Of a stretch of DNA of 64,000 nt, positions 54,931 to 64,000 are shown in pieces. Source of the stretch: Periconia sp. R9002 (Eukaryota; Ascomycota; Dothideomycetes; Pleosporales; Periconiaceae). Location: positions 186,001 through 250,000 of the forward strand of contig JAMAHW010000011.1 in assembly GCA_023627715.1 (NCBI GenBank), given 5' to 3'. Numbering within the stretch: the stretch's first letter is position 1; every line of letters starts with the position of its first letter. The notes under the pieces were generated by a model. The model was not told where the DNA came from, did not search any database, and was given only the letters and a program-made list of their open reading frames with translations. The position numbers and the translations under genes are program-made.

Positions 54931-54995
54931 GCTTCACGTGCCTGGCCCGCTCGCGTCCTCATATATTTTGCCTCCGTCGCTCGCTCGCTCGCTCC
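54931..54995 (+). promoter_or_regulatory. putative promoter of the snoRNA host gene
   Basis: A CACGTG E-box at 54935-54940 precedes a TATA-like ATATATTT at 54961-54968. CGCTCG repeats and a CT/CA-rich leader follow. No other TATA-like element is this well placed upstream of the first GTAAGT donor at 55256. The start site itself cannot be read from sequence. Confidence 0.4.
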
Positions 54996-57479
54996 CTCAC
55001 TCCCTCACCACCCACCACCACAACAACCTCCCCCTCTCAACCACCCCGTATTCTTTTGATTTATTGCTCATCTTCTTTGCCTTCTCTTTCTTTTCATCAC
55101 AGTTGTCCTTGTTTTCAGAGTACTTGGCTCTATCCCTTCTGGCTCGTCCGTGAGCGTCGGAGCGCCCGCAAGGGTGTGCTTGCCTCCAAGGCGACAACAC
55201 CACAACAACCAGCTCCCAGCGCGTCAAAGCGACCATGCTGAGGATATTCAGATGCGTAAGTACCTTATCCATGTTGAATCTTTCTTCTCGCAGCCGTTTT
55301 CGTCAAGAGTTCGGCGGCGAGCGTCGTCGCTGCGAGCGGGGTGCCTCCCAGCCTCAGCGACGACAACACCCTCCCAACGCCCTCCCTCCCACAAAACAAC
55401 GATTCTGGCTTTCCAGATCCTCTTTAGAGCTGCTTAAAGCTTGAGCGGTCTCATCTGCAGCTTTCTCTGTGGAGCTAGCCTCGCGGATGACCTCAGAGCG
55501 GTCATTGTAGCCTTGCGACCTCTCCCTCACTGCCCCCACCATCACAACTTCTCCGCGTCCGCCGGCTCTGTCTTTGCAACAGTACAGCAGCATATGGTAT
55601 TCATTGTAAGTTCTCCGCAAGTCTTTTCTCCGTCGAGTGGTCTGCGTCATCGCCTTTGCTGGCTAGCAGACAAACGACTTTAACCAACGTTGTCCCCCCG
55701 CTTCAGCACAGCTGCAGATTGGATGCTACCCTAGCAACCTGGTCTTCAACCAAGCACTTGAGCAGCGAGATTTGCTAATTTCCAACAGCGTCTCCAATGC
55801 GGGCTTTCCTTCTGCGTTGGCTTTGCTTGTTTTGCATTCACTGCTGTAGGGGTTGCTGTTGGTCTTGGCACGCGCACTTCGCGATATAGCATCTCGACGC
55901 TGTCAATCCCTCAATCAACCAACCCAATATGGTACGTATCATCCTTGAAACCTTTCCTCTTATTGGTTTGTTGCTTCAAACCAGGCTTGGGATTCCAGGT
56001 GTTGGTTTATTGTACCCGCTGCCGTATGCACCAAGCCTAGATCAAAACAACCCTTCCCTCGCTTCCAGAGCCTCCTCAACCCCAAGGATGCCATAGGAAT
56101 CGTCAGCCATTTCAGGGTAGAGTGGGGTTTGGTTAGACGCATCATTGCTGCTTCCACGTGCGAGGCTGACTGCGATCGCGGTGAAGTTGATGTTGCTCGT
56201 ACATTTTCTTAGCTCCTGCCTCTGATCTTCGCATAAGCCTTCCAGGTTCTTGCTAACAGCGTATCAGGTCTGGCACAACATTCACCTCAGAATAAATTCT
56301 TCCGTCATTCTTGAGTGGTAGGTTTCGATCCTCGTCGTTGCCGCCGTCGCCGCCGCCGTGGCTTTCCTCGACCATACACAATTCGGCCATGGTAACTGGA
56401 CCTGTGTCTCTATACCTTCGTCCAGACCAATTTCTTCTCACTCTTGCGAGTGAGCTGGCCAAGATCAAAACATCCCGATGGTCAACGTCGGAAGCAAGGG
56501 CCATTGTAGTCTCTTTTGAGACTCGCTTCCGTACGTTCAGAGCATGGCAGGCTAGGAAAAACAGAGAGTGGCCCTGAACGCGGGTGAATAAGAAAGACCA
56601 TCGGGGCGATGCAATGAAAACAACCCGAGCCGTCAGCGAGCGCTCGGCTTGGTGTGGTTTCGTGGTCCTCATCGTCGTACATTCTTCCGTTAAGATCCTG
56701 GGGGTGTTTCGTGGGTCCTTTGAGCCCCGACACTGACGTTCTGGGTAGGGCCTTCGCTGCGACATCAGCGTCTCTCGCCTTCCACACATAAACCAGTTTC
56801 CACAACCTGCTGGGTGCTTCAACCTGTTGATTCGTAAGTTCATACCCGCTCTCCCCTGCTATACCGGCCGCCAACCGGTCCCTGGTTCCCTCTCTTTTGT
56901 GCCTGTCTTTTCTCCGCGTTGCATCACCTTCGACACATATCGCAAGTCTTCTCTTCGGACGACCTTATTCCTCTTCTTCACCATCCTCGATATTCTCCAC
57001 AACATCTTCGATGCAACAGACATCGCCTGTCTTGAGTTTGTGTTCCTCCTCTTCACCGATCCTCGACACTCTCCCACTATGTGGTATATGGCTTGCAGAT
57101 TACCATATCTTGCCCTCATCGATACAATGTCGTCGCTCTTGGTAAGCTCCCGAAACAACATGTGAACCTAACTCCTACAGGCAAAGATTATCCACTCCTG
57201 TATTCGATTCTTTCTCAAACCATGTGAACGAGTCGCGCACGTCACAGAAAGTGTAGCTCTGGGCCTCATTCACCACCTATACCTTATCGTTCGGGTTCGA
57301 CGGTCTCAGTCCCCGCTGACGATAATCCAGCTCGCTCTTGGATGCTTTCCGGCCTTGTCGACATTGCTTCTTGGTAGGTTCTTTTTCCTTTTCGCTTTCT
57401 CCAATACTCCATCTGGCCAAGATGATACTTCGATCCTGTCCGCCCATCTCCCCTTGCCCCCAGCCCTTTGTCACAAAAA

Positions 57480-58245
57480 GAAATGGTAGCTTCTCTTTGT
57501 GTCATCCTTCCCCATCACCCTCAACCCCATCACCCTCAACCCCCAGCACTTGATTGCAGAAAAATGGTAGCTTCTCTTTGAGTCAATCATCCTTCATTCG
57601 GACTTGTCCACACAGTCTCGGGCCATCTCGGCGTTACGCCTGACAGTGCTATCGGGTTTCTGAGCCACTCTGTCATACCGGTCGTCCAAGAAATCTCGTC
57701 TTCTCTGTGTCGTTTCTTTCTAACGGGATAAAATTTTTTTTAGCGAGCGCAGGCGATGTCGCTTTTACCCTTCGATAAGTAAGTCGCTACTTCCTATCCT
57801 GCACCTCCCTTTCCCTGGCTATGATGATTCGAACATACCATATCTCCTCCGACAGAGAATGGTAGTTTCGACGTTCTTGAACTGCACGGTGCGCGGGTTG
57901 TTGAAAACTTCAAGACTATTATCTGAGCCTTTGTCCCCCGGGAACATATCTGCAGAGTTTAGCAAGTCGATTCTTTTGTTGACATGATACAGCGTAGCTT
58001 CTCATTCGATGCCGTTCCGGTCTTTCGTTGTCTGTTTGGTACGGTCCGGTCAAAGATCTTCGCCCCATATCATCACCCAATATGATCGTCGCCTCAACTC
58101 TCCGGCATTCTTCTGTAAGTTTATAATGCTGTCTTTGCACTTTCTTTCCTTCCTTGCGCAAAGATGAGTCCAGCGTTTCGAATTGGTTCTTTCTCGTCCA
58201 TTAAAAATGGTAGCTTCTCGTCCGTTTAAAATGGTAGCTTCTCTT
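57480..58245 (+). repeat. dispersed 13-bp motif ATGGTAGCTTCTC
   Basis: Four exact copies lie near 57483, 57564, 58208 and 58231, plus a variant near 57860. Two sit inside candidate snoRNA 2. The copies share a few flanking A residues before and CTTTG- or CTTGA-like bases after. Confidence 0.7.
57817..57929 (+). ncRNA. box C/D snoRNA 1
   Basis: Box C ATGATGA at 57821-57827, box D CTGA at 57923-57926, terminal stem GGCT/AGCC. It lies in the intron 57779-57952. The unusually long interior contains ATGGTAGTTTC, related to a repeated motif of the neighbouring unit. No rRNA target recognised. Confidence 0.7.
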
Positions 58246-58292
58246 GACCTTTTCCAGATTGCGGTGTGTCGACAACCAGCAATATCTGAGCG
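58157..58292 (+). ncRNA. box C/D snoRNA 2 (weak box C)
   Basis: Box C-like AAGATGA at 58161-58167 (one mismatch), box D CTGA at 58286-58289, stem CGC/GCG, within the intron 58115-58363. It holds two copies of ATGGTAGCTTCTC. The divergent box C lowers certainty. Confidence 0.5.
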
Positions 58293-58537
58293 TTTTGTTT
58301 TCTTTTTGAGCTTGGCTTTCCGATGTCGTTGTGTTTGAGTTCGTCGATAACGCTTGCTTTCAGTTCCACTCGCTGCCAGGTATCCTCTACTCGTTTCGAT
58401 GGCGACTGTCAACTTCGAATCATCTTCCCGCCCTCCCGCCACGATGTTTCGGATCGATCGAATTCGGTTGCTTTCAGATAGTCTCTGATATCAGAGTGGT
58501 AAGTACTAGTGATCATCTCTTTCCAATTCCTTTCCCT

Positions 58538-58655
58538 GGACAATGATGAGACGCACTGCGTGGCTCTCGCAAATGCGATTGAGCTCCTTTGCAAGCTAGC
58601 TCACCCAAGCTCACCCGGTAGTAATGCACGTTGTATAGCTTTGAGCACTGAGTCC
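58538..58655 (+). ncRNA. box C/D snoRNA 3 (family A, copy 1)
   Basis: Box C ATGATGA 58543-58549, box D CTGA 58648-58651, stem GGAC/GTCC. It shares GTGGCTCTCGCAAA and TTTGCAA with the other family members. The guide before D reads GTATAGCTTTGAGCA and is shared only with copy 5. Confidence 0.82.
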
Positions 58656-58790
58656 CTACTATTATAAGACACTTTCTTTGTCGAGATTTCAATCGAATGT
58701 TACTGACAGAGAAGACTTAGTATTCGATCCGGCCGTTGAGAGCAATTCCAAGGTAAGCACATCGTCTTTTTGTTGTTTTCTCCCCACCCA

Positions 58791-58915
58791 GGACAATGAT
58801 GAGACGCAAAGCGTGGCTCTCGCAAACGCGATTGAGCTCCTTTGCAACAACAGCTCGACATCCGACGTATCTGTTCTCTCTTTATCGAGTCTTCCAGGAT
58901 CCGAGCACTGAGTCC
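58791..58915 (+). ncRNA. box C/D snoRNA 4 (family A, copy 2)
   Basis: Box C 58796-58802, box D 58908-58911, stem GGAC/GTCC, in the intron 58753-58978. The 5' half is as in copy 1; the segment before D (CTTCCAGGATCCGAGCA) is different. Confidence 0.82.
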
Positions 58916-59037
58916 TTGTTATTGGCACCGCACGATTTGAGACCAGTCTCAGAGATGTTGCTGATAAAGAAGATATAGTGGTCCGACGCCTGGAAATTGC
59001 AATTCCTTGGTAAGTTTATTCGCCTTTTCCTTGTTCT

Positions 59038-59138
59038 TGACAATGAGGAAACGCAATGCGCGGCTCTCGCAAATGCGATGAACTCCTTTGCAAAGCTTGC
59101 TCAGCCCATGTGGTAGGGAGATCCTGAGCTCTGAGTCC
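59038..59138 (+). ncRNA. box C/D snoRNA 5 (family A, copy 3)
   Basis: Box C variant ATGAGGA 59043-59049, box D CTGA 59131-59134, in the intron 59010-59204. The guide before D is GGGAGATCCTGAGCT, related to copy 6. Confidence 0.75.
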
Positions 59139-59298
59139 TTTCCCCATGGCATTCTGTTTGCTTCCAGACCGGACTCCGGGATGTTGCTGATGGACCAATA
59201 CAAGGACAACCGACTCGGATGTTACGCAGCCACCTCGATGCAGTTACTATATTTCCTCTTCTCCGGTAAGCAACTCTCTTGGCTTCTTTTCTTCTTTT

Positions 59299-59389
59299 GG
59301 ACAATGATGAGACGCAATCGAGTGGCTCTCGCAAACGCGATGAACCCCTTTGCAACAATAGATCAATATGTAGTACCTGCACTGAGTCC
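59299..59389 (+). ncRNA. box C/D snoRNA 6 (family A, copy 4)
   Basis: Box C 59304-59310, box D 59382-59385, stem GGAC/GTCC. This is the shortest member, with a unique guide (ATATGTAGTACCTGCA) before D. Confidence 0.82.
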
Positions 59390-59537
59390 CTTTCTACGAC
59401 ATGCTGTTTGTTTCGAACGGGAGCTCGAGATATTGCTAACGCGAGAGAGTAAGGAAATTTTCTGCCGATTCGATGCGGCCACTGTTTCCTCCTTCTTCGT
59501 TTGGTAAGGATGCTCCCTCTCTTATGTTTTTTTCCTA

Positions 59538-59664
59538 GGACGATGATGAGACGCAATCGAGTGGCTCTCGCAAACGCGTTGAACCCCGTTGCAAGCTAGC
59601 TCACCCAAGTTCCGCCCGTAGTATCTGTCCATGCACATTGTATATAGCTTTGAGCACTGAGTCC
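59538..59664 (+). ncRNA. box C/D snoRNA 7 (family A, copy 5)
   Basis: Box C ATGATGA 59543-59549, box D 59657-59660, stem GGAC/GTCC. The guide region matches copy 1, so these two probably share a target. Confidence 0.82.
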
Positions 59665-59811
59665 CTTTCTACAACATTTTGTTTGCCTCGAATGGGAGCC
59701 CGAAATATTGCTGACGCGAAAGAGTTAGAAAACCTTCCACCGATTCGATGCTGCCAATATCTCTTTCTTCTTCTTTTGGTAAGGACACTTCATTTCTCTT
59801 GTTATTTCCTA

Positions 59812-59931
59812 GGACGAGGATGATACGCAAAGGCGTGGCTCTCGCAAATGTGATGAACCCCTTTGCAATCTTGCTCAGGAAGTGTAGTATTGCCACTTTA
59901 CGTGGAGTGAAAGCTCCTGAGCTCTGAGTCC
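59812..59931 (+). ncRNA. box C/D snoRNA 8 (family A, copy 6)
   Basis: Box C variant AGGATGA 59817-59823, box D 59924-59927, stem GGAC/GTCC, in the intron 59779-59996. The guide GAAAGCTCCTGAGCT resembles copy 3. The degenerate box C may weaken expression. Confidence 0.72.
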
Positions 59932-60106
59932 TTTTCCTTGACGTTTTGTTTCCTTCATACCGGAGCTTGAGATATTGCTGACAAAAGGGACTTCAGCAAA
60001 CTGATATGAAACGCTCTGCCGGTACTCGCTATAATCGGCATTCTTCCAGCTACCAGTTTCGGGCGCGCCCCTTCCTTTCGTAAGTTGTTGAAAACATCCC
60101 TTTCCT

Positions 60107-60248
60107 GAGCAATGATGAAGATGTGGTCGTCGCGCGATAGGTTTGTATTTGCCAGTGTTAGTTTCGTGTAGTGTTTCATGGCAACCGCGACGAACCCTCT
60201 GGGCTTTCCTTCTTTCTTTACCCACCCAGACCCTACAGGTCTGAGCTC
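60107..60248 (+). ncRNA. box C/D snoRNA 9 (family B, copy 1)
   Basis: Box C 60112-60118, box D 60241-60244, stem GAGC/GCTC, in the intron 60080-60260. It is long (142 nt), with conserved GGTCGTCGCGCGATAGG after box C and a pyrimidine-rich tract before D. Confidence 0.8.
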
Positions 60249-60378
60249 AATTGACTCCAGGCGTCGTCCAATTTTGAAGGATCCAATCTGTATCACTGAC
60301 GATGACCCAGGAAAGCGTCCGTTGAAAGTTACTCATCATCATCGCCGGTAAGTTTTTTCGATCTTTCAATCCCCTCCT

Positions 60379-60514
60379 GAGCAGTGATGAAGATGTGGTC
60401 GTCGCGCGATAGGTTTGTATATGCCATGTGTAGTGTTGGTAGTATGGCAATCGCGATGAACCCTCTGGGCTTTCCTTCTTTCTTTACCCACCCAGACCAG
60501 ATAGGTCTGAGCTC
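60379..60514 (+). ncRNA. box C/D snoRNA 10 (family B, copy 2)
   Basis: Box C GTGATGA 60384-60390, box D 60507-60510, stem GAGC/GCTC, in the intron 60348-60546. It is a clear duplicate of the preceding unit, differing mainly in the middle loop and just before D. Confidence 0.8.
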
Positions 60515-60736
60515 AATTTACTCCCGCAAACTTTGTATGTTCCCAGGGTTGAGTTTTTGATACTGACTGTGAGCAATTTTACCGATAGGAACCGATCGCT
60601 GGCCTCGATCATCAGGCAACTTAACTCGGCATCGTTTTTTTTTCGAAGCGTGGCATTTTTCTCGGAAGATTCTCAAGTTGTGGGGGCGTCAGTAAGTATT
60701 TCAGCTTTCGTTGCTTTCGGCCGCCAGCTACCTGCA

Positions 60737-60810
60737 CGCAAATGATGATCAAACGACTCATTCCAACCGGAACCTGTATGATGACCAGCACAATGATGAC
60801 CTGACAAGCG
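60737..60810 (+). ncRNA. box C/D snoRNA 11
   Basis: Box C ATGATGA 60742-60748, internal C' ATGATGA at about 60779-60785, box D 60801-60804, stem CGC/GCG, intron 60692-60872. The first guide contains ACTCATTCCAA, complementary to 11 nt of conserved 18S rRNA (TTGGAATGAGT, recalled). Confidence 0.82.
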
Positions 60811-60943
60811 GATCACCCTCTTCAAACGTTAATTCTCCCGCTATACGATTGGAAACTAACCTGCAATCTCAGGGAACTTGCTCAGAGCCTTTCGAACATG
60901 GTCAGTATATCTTCTCTTGCCAAGGTTTGAATACCACACATAC

Positions 60944-61007
60944 CGCTATGATGATCAAAGATTGTTTCCTTCTGAAAGTTTTGAAGACAAAAACCCGTTC
61001 TGAGAAG
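60944..61007 (+). ncRNA. box C/D snoRNA 12
   Basis: Box C 60948-60954, D' CTGA 60972-60975, box D 61000-61003, intron 60901-61067. Guides are AGATTGTTTCCTT and GACAAAAACCCGTT; target not recognised. Confidence 0.8.
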
Positions 61008-61139
61008 TGGTTTTCCGACATGTCCCCCGGCCCGACATGAATTTTTCGAGGGCTTTGCTAAGCACAGGGCAGGTTGTCAATAGGTGTCTGGTGCCACGAC
61101 AAGGTCAGTACATTTCACATTTTCCTAGAATTACCTCCC

Positions 61140-61200
61140 GCTATGATGACTCAAGAGTATCAATCGGATATATCATGTTGAATAAAACCTCATTCTGAGC
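61140..61200 (+). ncRNA. box C/D snoRNA 13
   Basis: Box C 61143-61149, box D 61195-61198, stem GCT/AGC, intron 61104-61261. Target not recognised. Confidence 0.8.
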
Positions 61201-61326
61201 AATTGAAGCCTTCGAGTCGTATCAATAAACCTCAGTTACGCCATTGCTAATCATTGCATAGAGTCATCAGGCTGATATTTCAGAAAGGTTAGTGGTTTCC
61301 TTTGCCAATCTTGGGGAATACACACT

Positions 61327-61397
61327 GCTATGATGAACCATTCGTTTCAATGGAAGTGTTCTGCCGAACAAAATGTCGATTCCACCTCGGTCTGAGC
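61327..61397 (+). ncRNA. box C/D snoRNA 14
   Basis: Box C 61330-61336, box D 61392-61395, stem GCT/AGC, intron 61288-61458. Target not recognised. Confidence 0.8.
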
Positions 61398-61527
61398 GAT
61401 TGAAGCCTCTGTCTTATGCCGAAAGATCTCTTCTAGATTGTTGCTGATCACTACCTAGAAAGGTCCGGTCGATGTTTTGACTTCATACACCTGGCATATA
61501 CAAAGGTTAGTAGCTTTGCAATTCTGG

Positions 61528-61595
61528 TGTGGCGATGGTAACAATTGATCATCTTCTTCCGAACAACGCTGTGGAAGAAAACTCGTTCTGAGCTG
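61528..61595 (+). ncRNA. box C/D snoRNA 15 (degenerate box C)
   Basis: Box C-like GCGATGG near 61532-61538 (two mismatches), box D 61588-61591, intron 61506-61654. The first guide contains TGATCATCTTC, complementary to the conserved 18S segment GAAGATGATCA (recalled). It is related to the next unit. Confidence 0.65.
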
Positions 61596-61735
61596 TTGAA
61601 GCTTCTGTGTTACGCCGAGAAGCTTATACTAGGTCGTTGTTGATCCTCTCCTAGAAACATTTAATCGATATGACTTGTCAGATCTCGGTTTTCAAAAAGG
61701 TTGGTAGTTTTCCTTCCGATCATAGGAGATACGCA

Positions 61736-61800
61736 CCGCAATGATGATATTAATAATCATCTTTCCGAACAACATTGTTGATAAAACTGCGTCTGAGCGG
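61736..61800 (+). ncRNA. box C/D snoRNA 16
   Basis: Box C 61741-61747, box D 61793-61796, stem CCGC/GCGG, intron 61700-61863. Its internal TTTCCGAACAAC is shared with unit 15. The guide GATAAAACTGCGT lies before D; partial match to the LSU segment CAGTTTTAT (recalled). Confidence 0.82.
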
Positions 61801-61947
61801 CGGACACCTATACCATGATGAGTAATCTTGTCGTAGCAGAGATATTCGCTAACTATGGACTAGGTGCAAGCATCGAGTAACTGGTTTGGGTTTTCTGCCG
61901 CACTGCGAGAAGGTTAGTACGTACTCCTTTTTCCCCGGAAGGTGATA

Positions 61948-62021
61948 CTGCTATGATGACTACTTCGCATGTATCTGAAGACCTTCGTCGATGAAGATGA
62001 TAGTCACCATCTGAACAGCAG
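61948..62021 (+). ncRNA. box C/D snoRNA 17
   Basis: Box C 61953-61959, D' CTGA 61975-61978, box D 62011-62014, five-base stem CTGCT/AGCAG, intron 61913-62079. One of the best-formed units in the array. Confidence 0.87.
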
Positions 62022-62167
62022 TTTCGATTCCTTACCTCGCTTCTCAGCTCTGGTTGTTGCTTCGCTGATAATCTTACAGATCCGGTCGTTCAGCGAGACT
62101 GGGTCTCAGCGTTTATGCAAGGCTAAGTCAGTACTTATTCCTTTCCTTATCTCCCCGGGAGAGACTT

Positions 62168-62238
62168 ACCGCGATGATGATGACAACAAAGTGCTTTTCT
62201 TGAAGCTTCATGAAGAGTCTATAGTCACTCTGAGTGGT
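62168..62238 (+). ncRNA. box C/D snoRNA 18
   Basis: Box C ATGATGA 62174-62180 (an overlapping second copy follows), box D 62230-62233, intron 62127-62297. The first guide CAAAGTGCTTTTC is complementary to 13 nt of the LSU D2-region sequence GAAAAGCACTTTG common in ascomycetes (recalled). Confidence 0.85.
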
Positions 62239-62366
62239 CATTTCTTTTGCTCTCGACACCAATAGACGGTTTCCGTACAACGCTAATGGCACTGCAGGCG
62301 GCACATGCGATTCGACGAGTTTCAAAAAGTCAGTAACTCTTTCTCATGTCGCTTCACACAACCCGA

Positions 62367-62429
62367 TCTATGATGATCCAGCCTTGCCCTCCACCGAGTT
62401 CACACGACGAGAAAACCGCGTTCTGAGAC
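62367..62429 (+). ncRNA. box C/D snoRNA 19
   Basis: Box C 62370-62376, D'-like CCGA, box D 62423-62426, intron 62329-62495. The first guide CTTGCCCTCCA is complementary to conserved 18S TGGAGGGCAAG (recalled), with four further matching bases after one mismatch. Confidence 0.86.
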
Positions 62430-62574
62430 CTGCAAAGTTCTCCCGATACACTGGTGCTCCCTCCGTGGCATTGATACTGACGCAGCTGCTAACAGGTCTT
62501 GTTGCCTGCTCGAAACATCGTGCCTAGACTTGGAAGGTCAGTTCTCCTTTTTCTTTCAACCTTGGAAACAGCAT

Positions 62575-62646
62575 ACCGTCATGATGACTATCCTTCAATT
62601 GTTTTCTTCTTATGAATCGCTGCCGAGAACTTCGTGCTTCTGAGGT
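62575..62646 (+). ncRNA. box C/D snoRNA 20
   Basis: Box C 62581-62587, box D 62640-62643, stem ACC/GGT, intron 62537-62712. AATCGCTGC and the bases after it are shared with unit 21, so the two are paralogues. Confidence 0.82.
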
Positions 62647-62809
62647 CTTCCAATATGCTCTCTCAACGTTCGAAAACATCGTAATTGACGGCACTGACTT
62701 GATTATGGGCAGGATAAGGCTGTTCGCTTAACAAGTTCTTGCCTTCACAAAAAGGTCAGTAACCGTTTTTCCCTTTTTCATTTCCTGGGTAGAGCCCCAC
62801 GTATATGAT

Positions 62810-62866
62810 GGTTTATCTTCTTGGACTTACAAATCGCTGCTGAGCACTTCACTTTCTGAGACTACG
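62810..62866 (+). ncRNA. box C/D snoRNA 21
   Basis: Box C variant ATGATGG 62815-62821, D' CTGA 62840-62843, box D 62856-62859, stem CGTA/TACG, intron 62755-62925. The guide CTTCACTTT directly before D is complementary to LSU AAAGTGAAG (recalled). Confidence 0.8.
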
Positions 62867-62985
62867 CAATTTGCCACCCCATCGTTTGGTTCATTTGGTA
62901 CCTTGTGATACTAACGGACTCGCAGGAACGCCCGGCTCATTCAGTAAGGTCAGTATCTCTTCCGTATCTCGAAGTAATTGCCCAA

Positions 62986-63054
62986 CGCACTGTTATGATG
63001 ATCATATCGCATCCGTCTGACCATCCGATGGCGACAAAACACATTCTGAGAGCG
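62986..63054 (+). ncRNA. box C/D snoRNA 22
   Basis: Box C 62995-63001, D' CTGA 63017-63020, box D 63046-63049, stem CGC/GCG, intron starting 62949. Target not recognised. Confidence 0.84.
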
Positions 63055-63196
63055 TTCTTCCGAAGTCTCTGTGCGCAAAACTCGTTTGGTCAACGGCAAG
63101 CTAAGCACCGTGAAAAGTAGGAGCCATACGAAAAAACACATCGCCTATTACACGCAAAAAATTAGTAAGTGTGCCTGCTTTTTGGAATCCACTCAC

Positions 63197-63266
63197 CACT
63201 ATGATGATGCTTTCTTGTCATGATTGTTCTGATTGTCCATGATGTCAAACGTTTCCATCTGAGTTT
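63197..63266 (+). ncRNA. box C/D snoRNA 23
   Basis: Box C 63201-63207, D' CTGA 63229-63232, C' ATGATGT 63239-63245, box D 63259-63262, intron 63165-63327. All four boxes are close to consensus. Confidence 0.86.
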
Positions 63267-63419
63267 CTTCGATAATTTTCGTACGGTCAAACGGTTTGAC
63301 GAGCAATTACTAAGAACAACGATCTAGGGATTCTAGAATGGTCTGCTGAAGTCTCCCAGAGTCTTAATCCCTACAGCAAGGTCAGTACGCGTGATTTTCT
63401 CATACATGCAGCACGTATC

Positions 63420-63536
63420 TCCCCATGATGTCAAACTCCAAAGTACCCACCTACACTTGGGTGTGATCAGCTCGGCCTTTCCGCCCGTGGGCTGTGGTTG
63501 TGATGATGTGCCTTTGGTTAAAAAGAACCTGAGGGA
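63420..63536 (+). ncRNA. box C/D snoRNA 24 (family C, copy 1)
   Basis: Box C ATGATGT 63425-63431, internal TGATGATGT near 63500, box D 63529-63532, stem TCCCC/GGGGA-like, intron 63381-63601. It is long; CCACCTACACT and GGTTGTGGTTG-like words recur in unit 25. Confidence 0.75.
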
Positions 63537-63691
63537 TTGCCTCGTTCAAAGAGACCGTTCGTATACAAACACCCGGACTTTGCTAACGACTTTGGGAAAA
63601 GGGTCTGAACGGCGCGACTATCCACTTGAATTCGGACACTCTGCAAACGGTCAGTATCTGTTCTCTTTCCTATACCCTTTTCAAACCTATC

Positions 63692-63803
63692 TCCCAATGA
63701 TGTTACCTCTTTAAAGCCCACCTACACTGGGGTATGAGCAACTCCCCGAGCGGTCTGGGTTGTGGTTGTGTTGAAGCATAGTTTCTAAAAAGAATCTGAG
63801 GGA
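63692..63803 (+). ncRNA. box C/D snoRNA 25 (family C, copy 2)
   Basis: Box C ATGATGT 63697-63703, box D 63796-63799, stem TCCC/GGGA, intron 63650-63866. It is a duplicate of unit 24 with diverged guides. Confidence 0.75.
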
Positions 63804-63959
63804 TTTATTCCGCTGAGAATGTTCATCGGTACATGAAGACAAGGGTTTGGCTAACGATGAGAGAAGGTTTGATACCGATGCGACCGTAAGCGCCGAGCAT
63901 TGATGTCCCTATCAAAAAGTTAGTACCTACGTTTTCTTCCAGTCGAGCTTTGGCACTTA

Positions 63960-64000
63960 TCTTCATGATGATACGTTTACACCTGAATCTGGTCATTATG
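63960..64000 (+). ncRNA. box C/D snoRNA 26, cut by the window end
   Basis: Box C ATGATGA 63965-63971 and CTGA 63983-63986, probably D', follow a GTTAGT donor at 63919. The 3' half is outside the window, so the array continues. Confidence 0.7.

Follow-up and report, generated by a model that had tools for sequence, protein, structure and literature searches.

Mammalian host genes of the UHG/GAS5 type are spliced and non-coding and keep a fixed distance between the small nucleolar RNA (snoRNA) and the branch site downstream of it; the SNORD115 and SNORD116 snoRNAs are carried by one long non-coding host, with a guide that is conserved between copies. In this study, we describe a putative host gene for box C/D snoRNAs from the ascomycete Periconia sp. 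R9002 (genome of 42.9 Mb in 267 contigs), located in a stretch of 64,000 nucleotides (nt) that comprises positions 186,001-250,000 of contig C11 and is referred to below as the window. A total of 30 successive predicted introns, running from window position 57,374 to approximately 64,985, contain one box C/D snoRNA candidate apiece. The fixed distance between snoRNA and branch site is common to UHG/GAS5 and to this array, which differs in having about 30 units, many of them tandem-duplicated.

Intronic C/D snoRNAs of fungi are known from several accounts, which are cited here to the extent of their accessible portions. Neurospora crassa has 55 C/D snoRNAs, 45 of them intronic, with six C/D clusters and mostly single-copy genes (PMC2780460), Luo et al. 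(2013) reported three conserved fungal clusters with 7, 3 and 3 snoRNAs (PMC3596301), six snoRNAs are listed for a host of Exophiala dermatitidis (PMC5075926), and a further paper gives a snoRNA cluster of four. The hosts of filamentous fungi in the three identified papers resemble the present locus in having one C/D snoRNA per intron, short and poorly conserved non-coding exons and canonical splice sites. The largest fungal cluster listed in these portions consists of seven different conserved snoRNAs (PMC3596301), whereas the present array has about 30, many of which are interrelated and none of which reaches an Rfam cut-off. No comparable array is reported in the accessible portions of the SnoBIRD paper and of a fungal RNA screen, and no fungal host near 30 units was present among the matches listed in the literature, with most subscription journals lying outside the coverage. 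The preliminary description of this DNA had called the array unusually long, which agrees with about thirty units against at most seven listed for fungal hosts. Tandem paralogous C/D snoRNAs with birth-and-death evolution are also recorded for SNORD115 and SNORD116 at the Prader-Willi locus (PMC4063771); the array differs from that system in that it is fungal, comprises several families and does not keep guides between copies, and imprinting would not be expected.

Organization of the predicted intron array

All units are sequence predictions, and the chain was curated around variants of the motifs. The next 20 kb downstream of the window was taken as two stretches, L005 and L006, with position p of L005 corresponding to window position 63,500+p. 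In order, the chain consists of e1-e3, A1-A6, B1-B2, X1, C1-C12, D1-D2, C13-C15 and F1 (Table 1), and no intron of the chain was seen without a candidate. Box C lies within the window in 27 units and 26 units are complete there; the window edge splits C13, the units C14, C15 and F1 belong to L005, and the last ~1 kb of the array is beyond the window. F1 is the least certain link of this predicted chain, as it is preceded by an exon of 200 nt and has its branch site 80 nt after box D. At least 26 intronic C/D snoRNAs had been claimed in the preliminary description, a count equal to the 26 units with box C between 57.8 and 64 kb. The span proposed there (54,990 to the window end, with snoRNAs from 57.8 kb) stands for its right part, which holds the chain, but no unit was found in 54,990-57,373, where one chance-like pair of box D and branch site occurs at 56,166, and the array begins at 57,374 with unit e1. 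Contrary to the same description, the array is not open at its right edge, since its final unit, as far as found, stops ~1 kb past the window end. Unit e1, the array end, growth by tandem duplication and the complementarity to U6 and U2 were absent from that description.

A strict motif was defined as GTNAGT, RTGATG[AGT], CTGA and CTRAY in fixed order and range. It gave 16 matches on the plus strand of 57,701-65,000, one of them a double count (15 different units), and none on the minus strand of this region. On both strands, one match was obtained in window positions 1-54,500 and none in the 17.5 kb downstream, and 200 dinucleotide shuffles gave a mean of 0.045 with a maximum of 1. The 5' splice site precedes box C by 26-52 nt in 29 units and by 45 nt in e1; the former range is close to the 41-60 nt mainly found in N. 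crassa. The distance from box D to the branch site is 51-60 nt in 28 of the 30 curated units, in which branch sites were chosen with a preference for 54 nt and that of e3 was placed by hand; when the first CTRAY was taken, as in the strict motif, it was 52-57 nt in 15 of 16 matches (14 of 15 different units). Since the bodies of the units vary from 55 to 245 nt, a uniform length cannot account for this constant distance. The 29 predicted exons measure 23-200 nt (median 47), and the longest open reading frame of the spliced chain (1,682 nt) encodes 105 amino acids, inside the range of shuffles (mean 77, 95th percentile 127). The exons are therefore short and without coding signal, as had been described before.

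Box D is CTGA in all 30 units, CTGA having been used for selecting them, and box C is exactly RTGATGA in 21, with one or two changes in the other 9 (among them AAGATGA in e1 and e3 and GCGATGG in C4); the earlier statement that nearly every intron carries one C/D snoRNA with both boxes extends, as candidates, to 30 consecutive predicted introns. An internal CTGA was seen by eye, without a statistic, in C6, C11 and C12 and is degenerate or unclear in other units. Terminal stems above the cut were obtained for 17 of 30 units, their sequences differing between units and yet each fitting itself. Upon permutation of stem partners the observed mean was never reached in 20,000 trials, and the result was the same when families A, B and D were each represented by a single unit. 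As a set, the terminal stems pair better inside units than across units.

Families A, B, C and D are tandem paralogues. In family A exons and introns were copied as one (59,379-59,532 versus 59,654-59,807, 80%), and D1 and D2 are alignable across their entire introns. Among the 15 C-type units, identity is 0.91 in boxes C and D (a figure inflated by picking units by their boxes), 0.78 at 5' splice sites and 0.64 at branch sites, while guide zones, spacers and exon ends are near random at 0.28-0.39; in the guide zones alone it is 0.30-0.39, and guides vary from copy to copy. A model of the C family, run on the window, L005 and L006, recovered its 15 training units, a second partial match at C13 and a weak match at X1 (E 0.013), and RNAalifold placed no base pairs on this family. 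DNA searches of the genome with 58,480-59,100 and 60,080-64,000, which left out e1-e3 and 59,100-60,080, found copies only in the array, and the search with 60,080-64,000 was insensitive, as it missed paralogues inside the array too.

The layout of the array also occurs elsewhere in the genome. U14 (contig C7:202,784-202,891) lies in a predicted intron in which the 5' splice site GGTCAGTG precedes box C by 42 nt and box D is followed by CTAAC at 53 nt; since this intron shares the spacing, the array is laid out like a known snoRNA of the same genome. When Rfam matches with E up to 10 were considered in 54.5-64 kb, 17 of 18 were to C/D families, the best being SNORD59, which scored 29.5 bits where its cut-off is 45. 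These weak C/D matches are confined to four units (C1, C5, C7 and X1) and one place outside the array, and therefore say little about the remaining units.

Complementarity to ribosomal and spliceosomal RNAs

Guide positions were compared with a panel of 18S, 5.8S and 25/28S ribosomal RNA (rRNA) from stray eukaryotic contigs (L011, L013-L019), not from the species itself; the 18S rRNA of L016 is taken by us to resemble that of baker's yeast. A duplex had to start at most 2 nt from box D or a D'-like word (relaxed), with one G-U allowed, and to occur in at least two panel members. Duplexes of at least 10 base pairs (bp) were found in 14 of 30 units versus 6.45 (standard deviation 2.1) in 200 shuffles, none of which reached 14, and controls gave 5 (reversed rRNA), 1 (sense), 3 (complemented) and 2-8 (guides shifted by 4-10 nt). 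With the threshold raised to 11 bp the count was 7 of 30 versus 1.5, with 0 of 200 shuffles reaching 7 and the same controls giving 1, 0, 1 and 0-4, respectively. An earlier version with 28 units and 100 shuffles had yielded 13 versus 5.95 and 7 versus 1.47 at these two thresholds. The seven units with at least 11 bp are C7, C15, C8, C6, X1, C4 and D1, among which C7 matches 25/28S rRNA over 13 bp (GAAAAGCACTTTG), C15 has 12 bp overlapping that place, and the 18S match of C8 is present in six panel members. Perhaps about half of the 14 matches of at least 10 bp are real, and we conclude that some units probably serve as rRNA guides, for methylated sites that are not nameable. Several methylation sites of N. 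crassa lie outside the yeast set (PMC2780460 Table 1), so extra sites here would not be odd.

Small nuclear RNAs (snRNAs) were represented by U1, U2, U4, U5 and U6 of the same genome. A word repeated in the 5' part of the array is the reverse complement of the U6 3' end. The sequence ATGGTAGCTTCTCTT occurs in six copies in the genome, namely one in the U6 gene on contig C6, one in an adjacent truncated U6 copy, three in the array and one downstream, and its reversed control occurs in none. The downstream copy, a U6 3'-end 15-mer at L005:5316 (window scale 68,816), lies 3.8 kb past the array in the orientation opposite to the array copies. Perfect complementarities of 22, 19, 18 and 17 nt are found in e1 and e3, and one of 12 nt with one G-U in e2, these being the three 5'-most units of the array; this predicted pairing with the U6 3' end is new here. 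In the whole array, snRNA complementarity of at least 11 nt was found in 7 of 30 units, which are e1-e3 (U6), B2 (U5), C6 (U4), and D1 and D2 (U2), compared with a shuffle mean of 1.5 and a highest value of 6 in 60 shuffles; reversed snRNA gave 1 and sense snRNA 3. The 11-nt match of C6 to U4 and a 10-nt match of B1 to U1 were taken as chance.

N. crassa possesses U2/U6-directed C/D guides (CD29, CD26 and CD11) that follow the D+5 rule with 11-16 bp (PMC2780460 Table 1), and these resemble the present units in being intron-encoded C/D RNAs with snRNA complementarity. Unlike them, the U6 matches of the array are up to 22 nt long, lie in the U6 3' tail and are mostly without a clear D' box. The U2 match of D1 and D2, 11 nt directly before box D, falls in a AAAAAGAA stretch of low complexity. 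At almost the same position, D2 also matches a different part of U2 over 12 nt, and D1 carries an 11-nt rRNA match. Because of the low complexity and these competing matches, the U2 link is suggestive only, the complementarity by itself being not beyond chance.

Some further observations concern the same snRNAs. In the e1 intron, positions 57,699-57,716, which lie after box D and before the branch site, are complementary in 17 of 18 nt to U6 24-41, including the ACAGAGA box (E 0.005). The 15-mer at L005:5316 is in U6-sense orientation and stands upstream of a broken reading frame that by eye resembles an RRM protein. On contig C6, ~611,800-612,200 (L020), a full U6 gene adjoins a 5'-truncated U6 copy in opposite orientation with the 3' end kept, and a U6-like gene (Rfam 72.8 bits) with a 3' end unlike that of the contig C6 gene lies ~6.6 kb past the array at L005:8098-8200 (window scale 71,598-71,700). 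Five U2 matches were found in the genome, four of them above the Rfam cut-off; the copy at contig C23:183,843-184,089 (L028) has an apparent spliceosomal intron (GTAAGT...CTAAC...CAG) inside U2, and the copy on contig C19 is without it. Three units of family A have 11-nt words (58,867-58,877, 59,618-59,628 and 59,880-59,890) that are identical in sense to parts of the U2 branch-site recognition stretch AAGTGTAGTATCTGTTCT; they are unproven, each having an E of 0.66, whereas the U2 sense word with the lowest E (0.17) is at the D2 5' splice site.

Proposed mechanism and competing explanations

At the level of sequence the observation is confirmed: the motif chain, its spacing, the stems as a set, the paralogy and the complementarity were observed directly. 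The best reading, which these observations support, is a putative non-coding host gene whose introns each carry a single C/D snoRNA. Very probably it is a multi-intron non-coding host of the UHG/GAS5 kind that was enlarged by tandem duplication and some units of which are rRNA guides. For this locus we infer transcription, splicing, trimming and methylation in the following way. A multi-intron non-coding gene would be transcribed by RNA polymerase II and spliced, and each intron, once excised and debranched, would be trimmed by exonucleases into one box C/D RNA. Trimming would be stopped by the snoRNA-binding (snoRNP) proteins on boxes C and D together with the terminal stem, ~55 nt upstream of the branch site. 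As the gene grew, intron-exon units were probably copied in tandem (families A, B, C and D), after which guides diverged while boxes, splice sites and the distance from box D to the branch site were kept. Some units would guide 2'-O-methylation of rRNA, with U6 and U2 as possible targets of e1-e3 and D1-D2. The assignment to a known kind of non-coding snoRNA host is well supported, the locus being exceptional in its size and tandem origin, with the U6 link unexplained.

Several points weigh against this reading. Units were selected by their boxes, 13 of 30 stems are below the cut (A3 just so, X1, C2-C4 and C8-C15, with X1 and C14 scoring zero), the branch-site word of e3 is weak (ATAAC, 61 nt after box D), and F1 departs from the common spacing as noted above. 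The earlier statement that nearly every copy has a short terminal stem therefore holds only in part. The rRNA of the species itself was not found in the genome (5.8S family, 18S 42-mer), so no guided site is nameable; rRNA matches of 9 bp are not in excess (20 versus 19.9), and paralogues were counted separately, A1 and A5 sharing one match. When e1-e3 are set aside, the snRNA count drops to 4 of 27, which shuffles also reach, so that as a count only the U6 link is beyond chance. At the gathering cut-off, the Rfam covariance search proposed in the preliminary description returned no matches in the window and only U6 in L005 and L006, and the known members of the fungal clusters (snR72-78, snR57/55/61 and snR41/70/51) gave none in the window in a search that is insensitive here. 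U14 of the same genome also stays below its cut-off (48.2 bits against 64), which indicates that Rfam is insensitive in this genome and that the null is not decisive.

The stems below the cut, the 9 altered boxes C and the near-random guide zones between copies would also be expected of a largely decaying array, in which tandem duplication of a small number of original snoRNAs left copies that are now mostly silent relics. We consider this rather improbable, as boxes C and D (by which the units were picked) and splice sites are conserved beside near-random intron sequence, the spacing is kept in 28 of 30 units and the rRNA complementarity exceeds that of shuffles. The same excess of rRNA matches speaks against an orphan regulatory array similar to SNORD115/116, whose paralogous C/D RNAs would act on messenger RNAs or other non-ribosomal RNAs, and so do the C-family guides, which vary by copy although an orphan family with a single target would keep its guide. 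Such an array would suit the tandem paralogues, the lack of a 10-bp rRNA match at the guide position in 16 of 30 units and the A-family core, which is conserved without a known target, but on balance we doubt it. That the units are no snoRNAs at all and represent an ordinary intron or satellite repeat with chance TGATGA and CTGA words is highly improbable; they are indeed repeats, yet the permutation test of the stems, the same layout in U14 and a spacing that is fixed although guide zones and spacers are near random all argue otherwise.

For the U6-complementary stretches, there is about an even chance that they are functionless fragments of U6 gene copies caught in antisense. That U6 fragments are mobile in this genome is evident from the 5'-truncated copy next to the U6 gene of contig C6, and the U6 3' end is part of each of the four longest matches. 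On the other side, e1 and e3 are alignable only in their U6-complementary words, both contain a pair of such stretches with the same orientation throughout, and a further 12-nt match of e3 to U6 18-29 (short, with one G-U) stands in an order unlike that of a simple antisense copy. A more far-reaching proposal, which we regard as unlikely, is that the locus is devoted to making guide RNAs, including some for the spliceosome. In this view, e1-e3 would modify, protect or regulate U6 by pairing with its 3' tail (over 17-22 nt for e1 and e3), D1-D2 would guide 2'-O-methylation of U2 in the GUUCU after the branch-site recognition sequence, and RNAs of a heavily spliced 30-intron gene would thus act on the spliceosome.

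Coordinates, neighbouring features and significance

The units are listed in Table 1. Elsewhere in the window, five proteins were scanned, and one HET (PF06985), one PigL_N/NACHT and one mitochondrial carrier protein were found, a gene content of filamentous ascomycetes; HET proteins are a hallmark of Pezizomycotina. Two adjacent hairpin-like stretches at 56,494-56,620 (GGAAGC...GCTTCC and GTTCAG...CTGAAC), seen by eye only, might be an H/ACA RNA. A remnant at L005:8750-9000 resembles a Ty3-type reverse transcriptase, also by eye only.

Table 1. Predicted host gene, box C/D units and U6-complementary stretches in window coordinates
Feature	Position	Strand	Remarks
snoRNA host gene, predicted introns and short non-coding exons	57374..64000, on to ~64,985 (L005:1485)	+	
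e1 C/D-like RNA, 245 nt	57419..57663	+	5' splice site 57,374; box C AAGATGA; stem TGGC/GCCA; two U6-complementary stretches
e1 stretch, 19 nt perfectly complementary to U6 nt 79-97	57481..57499	+	22 nt with one G-U
e1 stretch, 22 nt perfectly complementary to U6 nt 78-99	57560..57581	+	23 nt with one G-U
e2 C/D snoRNA, predicted	57821..57926	+	stem GGC/GCC; 12-nt U6 complementarity with one G-U
e3 C/D-like RNA	58161..58289	+	box C AAGATGA; stem GCGC/GCGT
e3 U6-complementary stretches	17 nt 58,203-58,219; 18 nt 58,228-58,245	+	
A1 C/D snoRNA, predicted	58543..58651	+	stem GGAC/GTCC
A2 C/D snoRNA, predicted	58796..58911	+	
A3 C/D snoRNA, predicted	59043..59134	+	box C ATGAGGA
A4 C/D snoRNA, predicted	59304..59385	+	
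A5 C/D snoRNA, predicted	59543..59660	+	
A6 C/D snoRNA, predicted	59817..59927	+	box C AGGATGA
B1 C/D snoRNA, predicted	60112..60244	+	stem TGAGC/GCTCA
B2 C/D snoRNA, predicted	60384..60510	+	stem TGAGC/GCTCA
X1 C/D candidate	60742..60804	+	terminal stem not found
C1 C/D snoRNA, predicted	60948..61003	+	stem ACCGCT/AGTGGT; weak Rfam SNORD59 match
C2 C/D snoRNA, predicted	61143..61198	+	
C3 C/D snoRNA, predicted	61330..61395	+	
C4 C/D snoRNA candidate	61532..61591	+	degenerate box C GCGATGG; 11-bp 18S complementarity near D'
C5 C/D snoRNA, predicted	61741..61796	+	stem CCGC/GCGG
C6 C/D snoRNA, predicted	61953..62014	+	stem ACTGCT/AGCAGT; internal CTGA; 11-bp 18S complementarity at D'
C7 C/D snoRNA, predicted	62174..62233	+	stem ACCGC/GTGGT; 13-bp 25/28S complementarity at D'
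C8 C/D snoRNA, predicted	62370..62426	+	11-bp complementarity at D' to conserved 18S
C9 C/D snoRNA, predicted	62581..62643	+	
C10 C/D snoRNA, predicted	62805..62859	+	box C ATGATGG
C11 C/D snoRNA, predicted	62995..63049	+	internal CTGA
C12 C/D snoRNA, predicted	63201..63262	+	internal CTGA and ATGATGT (C'/D')
D1 C/D snoRNA, predicted	63425..63532	+	box C ATGATGT; stem TCCC/GGGA; 11-nt U2 complementarity abutting box D
D2 C/D snoRNA, predicted, paralogue of D1	63697..63799	+	box C ATGATGT; 11-nt U2 complementarity abutting box D
C13 C/D candidate	63965..64000, box D at 64,018 (L005:518)	+	without terminal stem

If the RNAs are made, the locus would be the largest fungal snoRNA host among the matches listed in the literature, as far as its accessible portions go, and would make the birth and diversification of guide RNAs by tandem duplication visible outside mammals. 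With ~30 graded copies in one gene, it would allow tests of how guides gain new rRNA sites, and the array would also allow testing whether C/D RNAs act on U6 via its 3' end.

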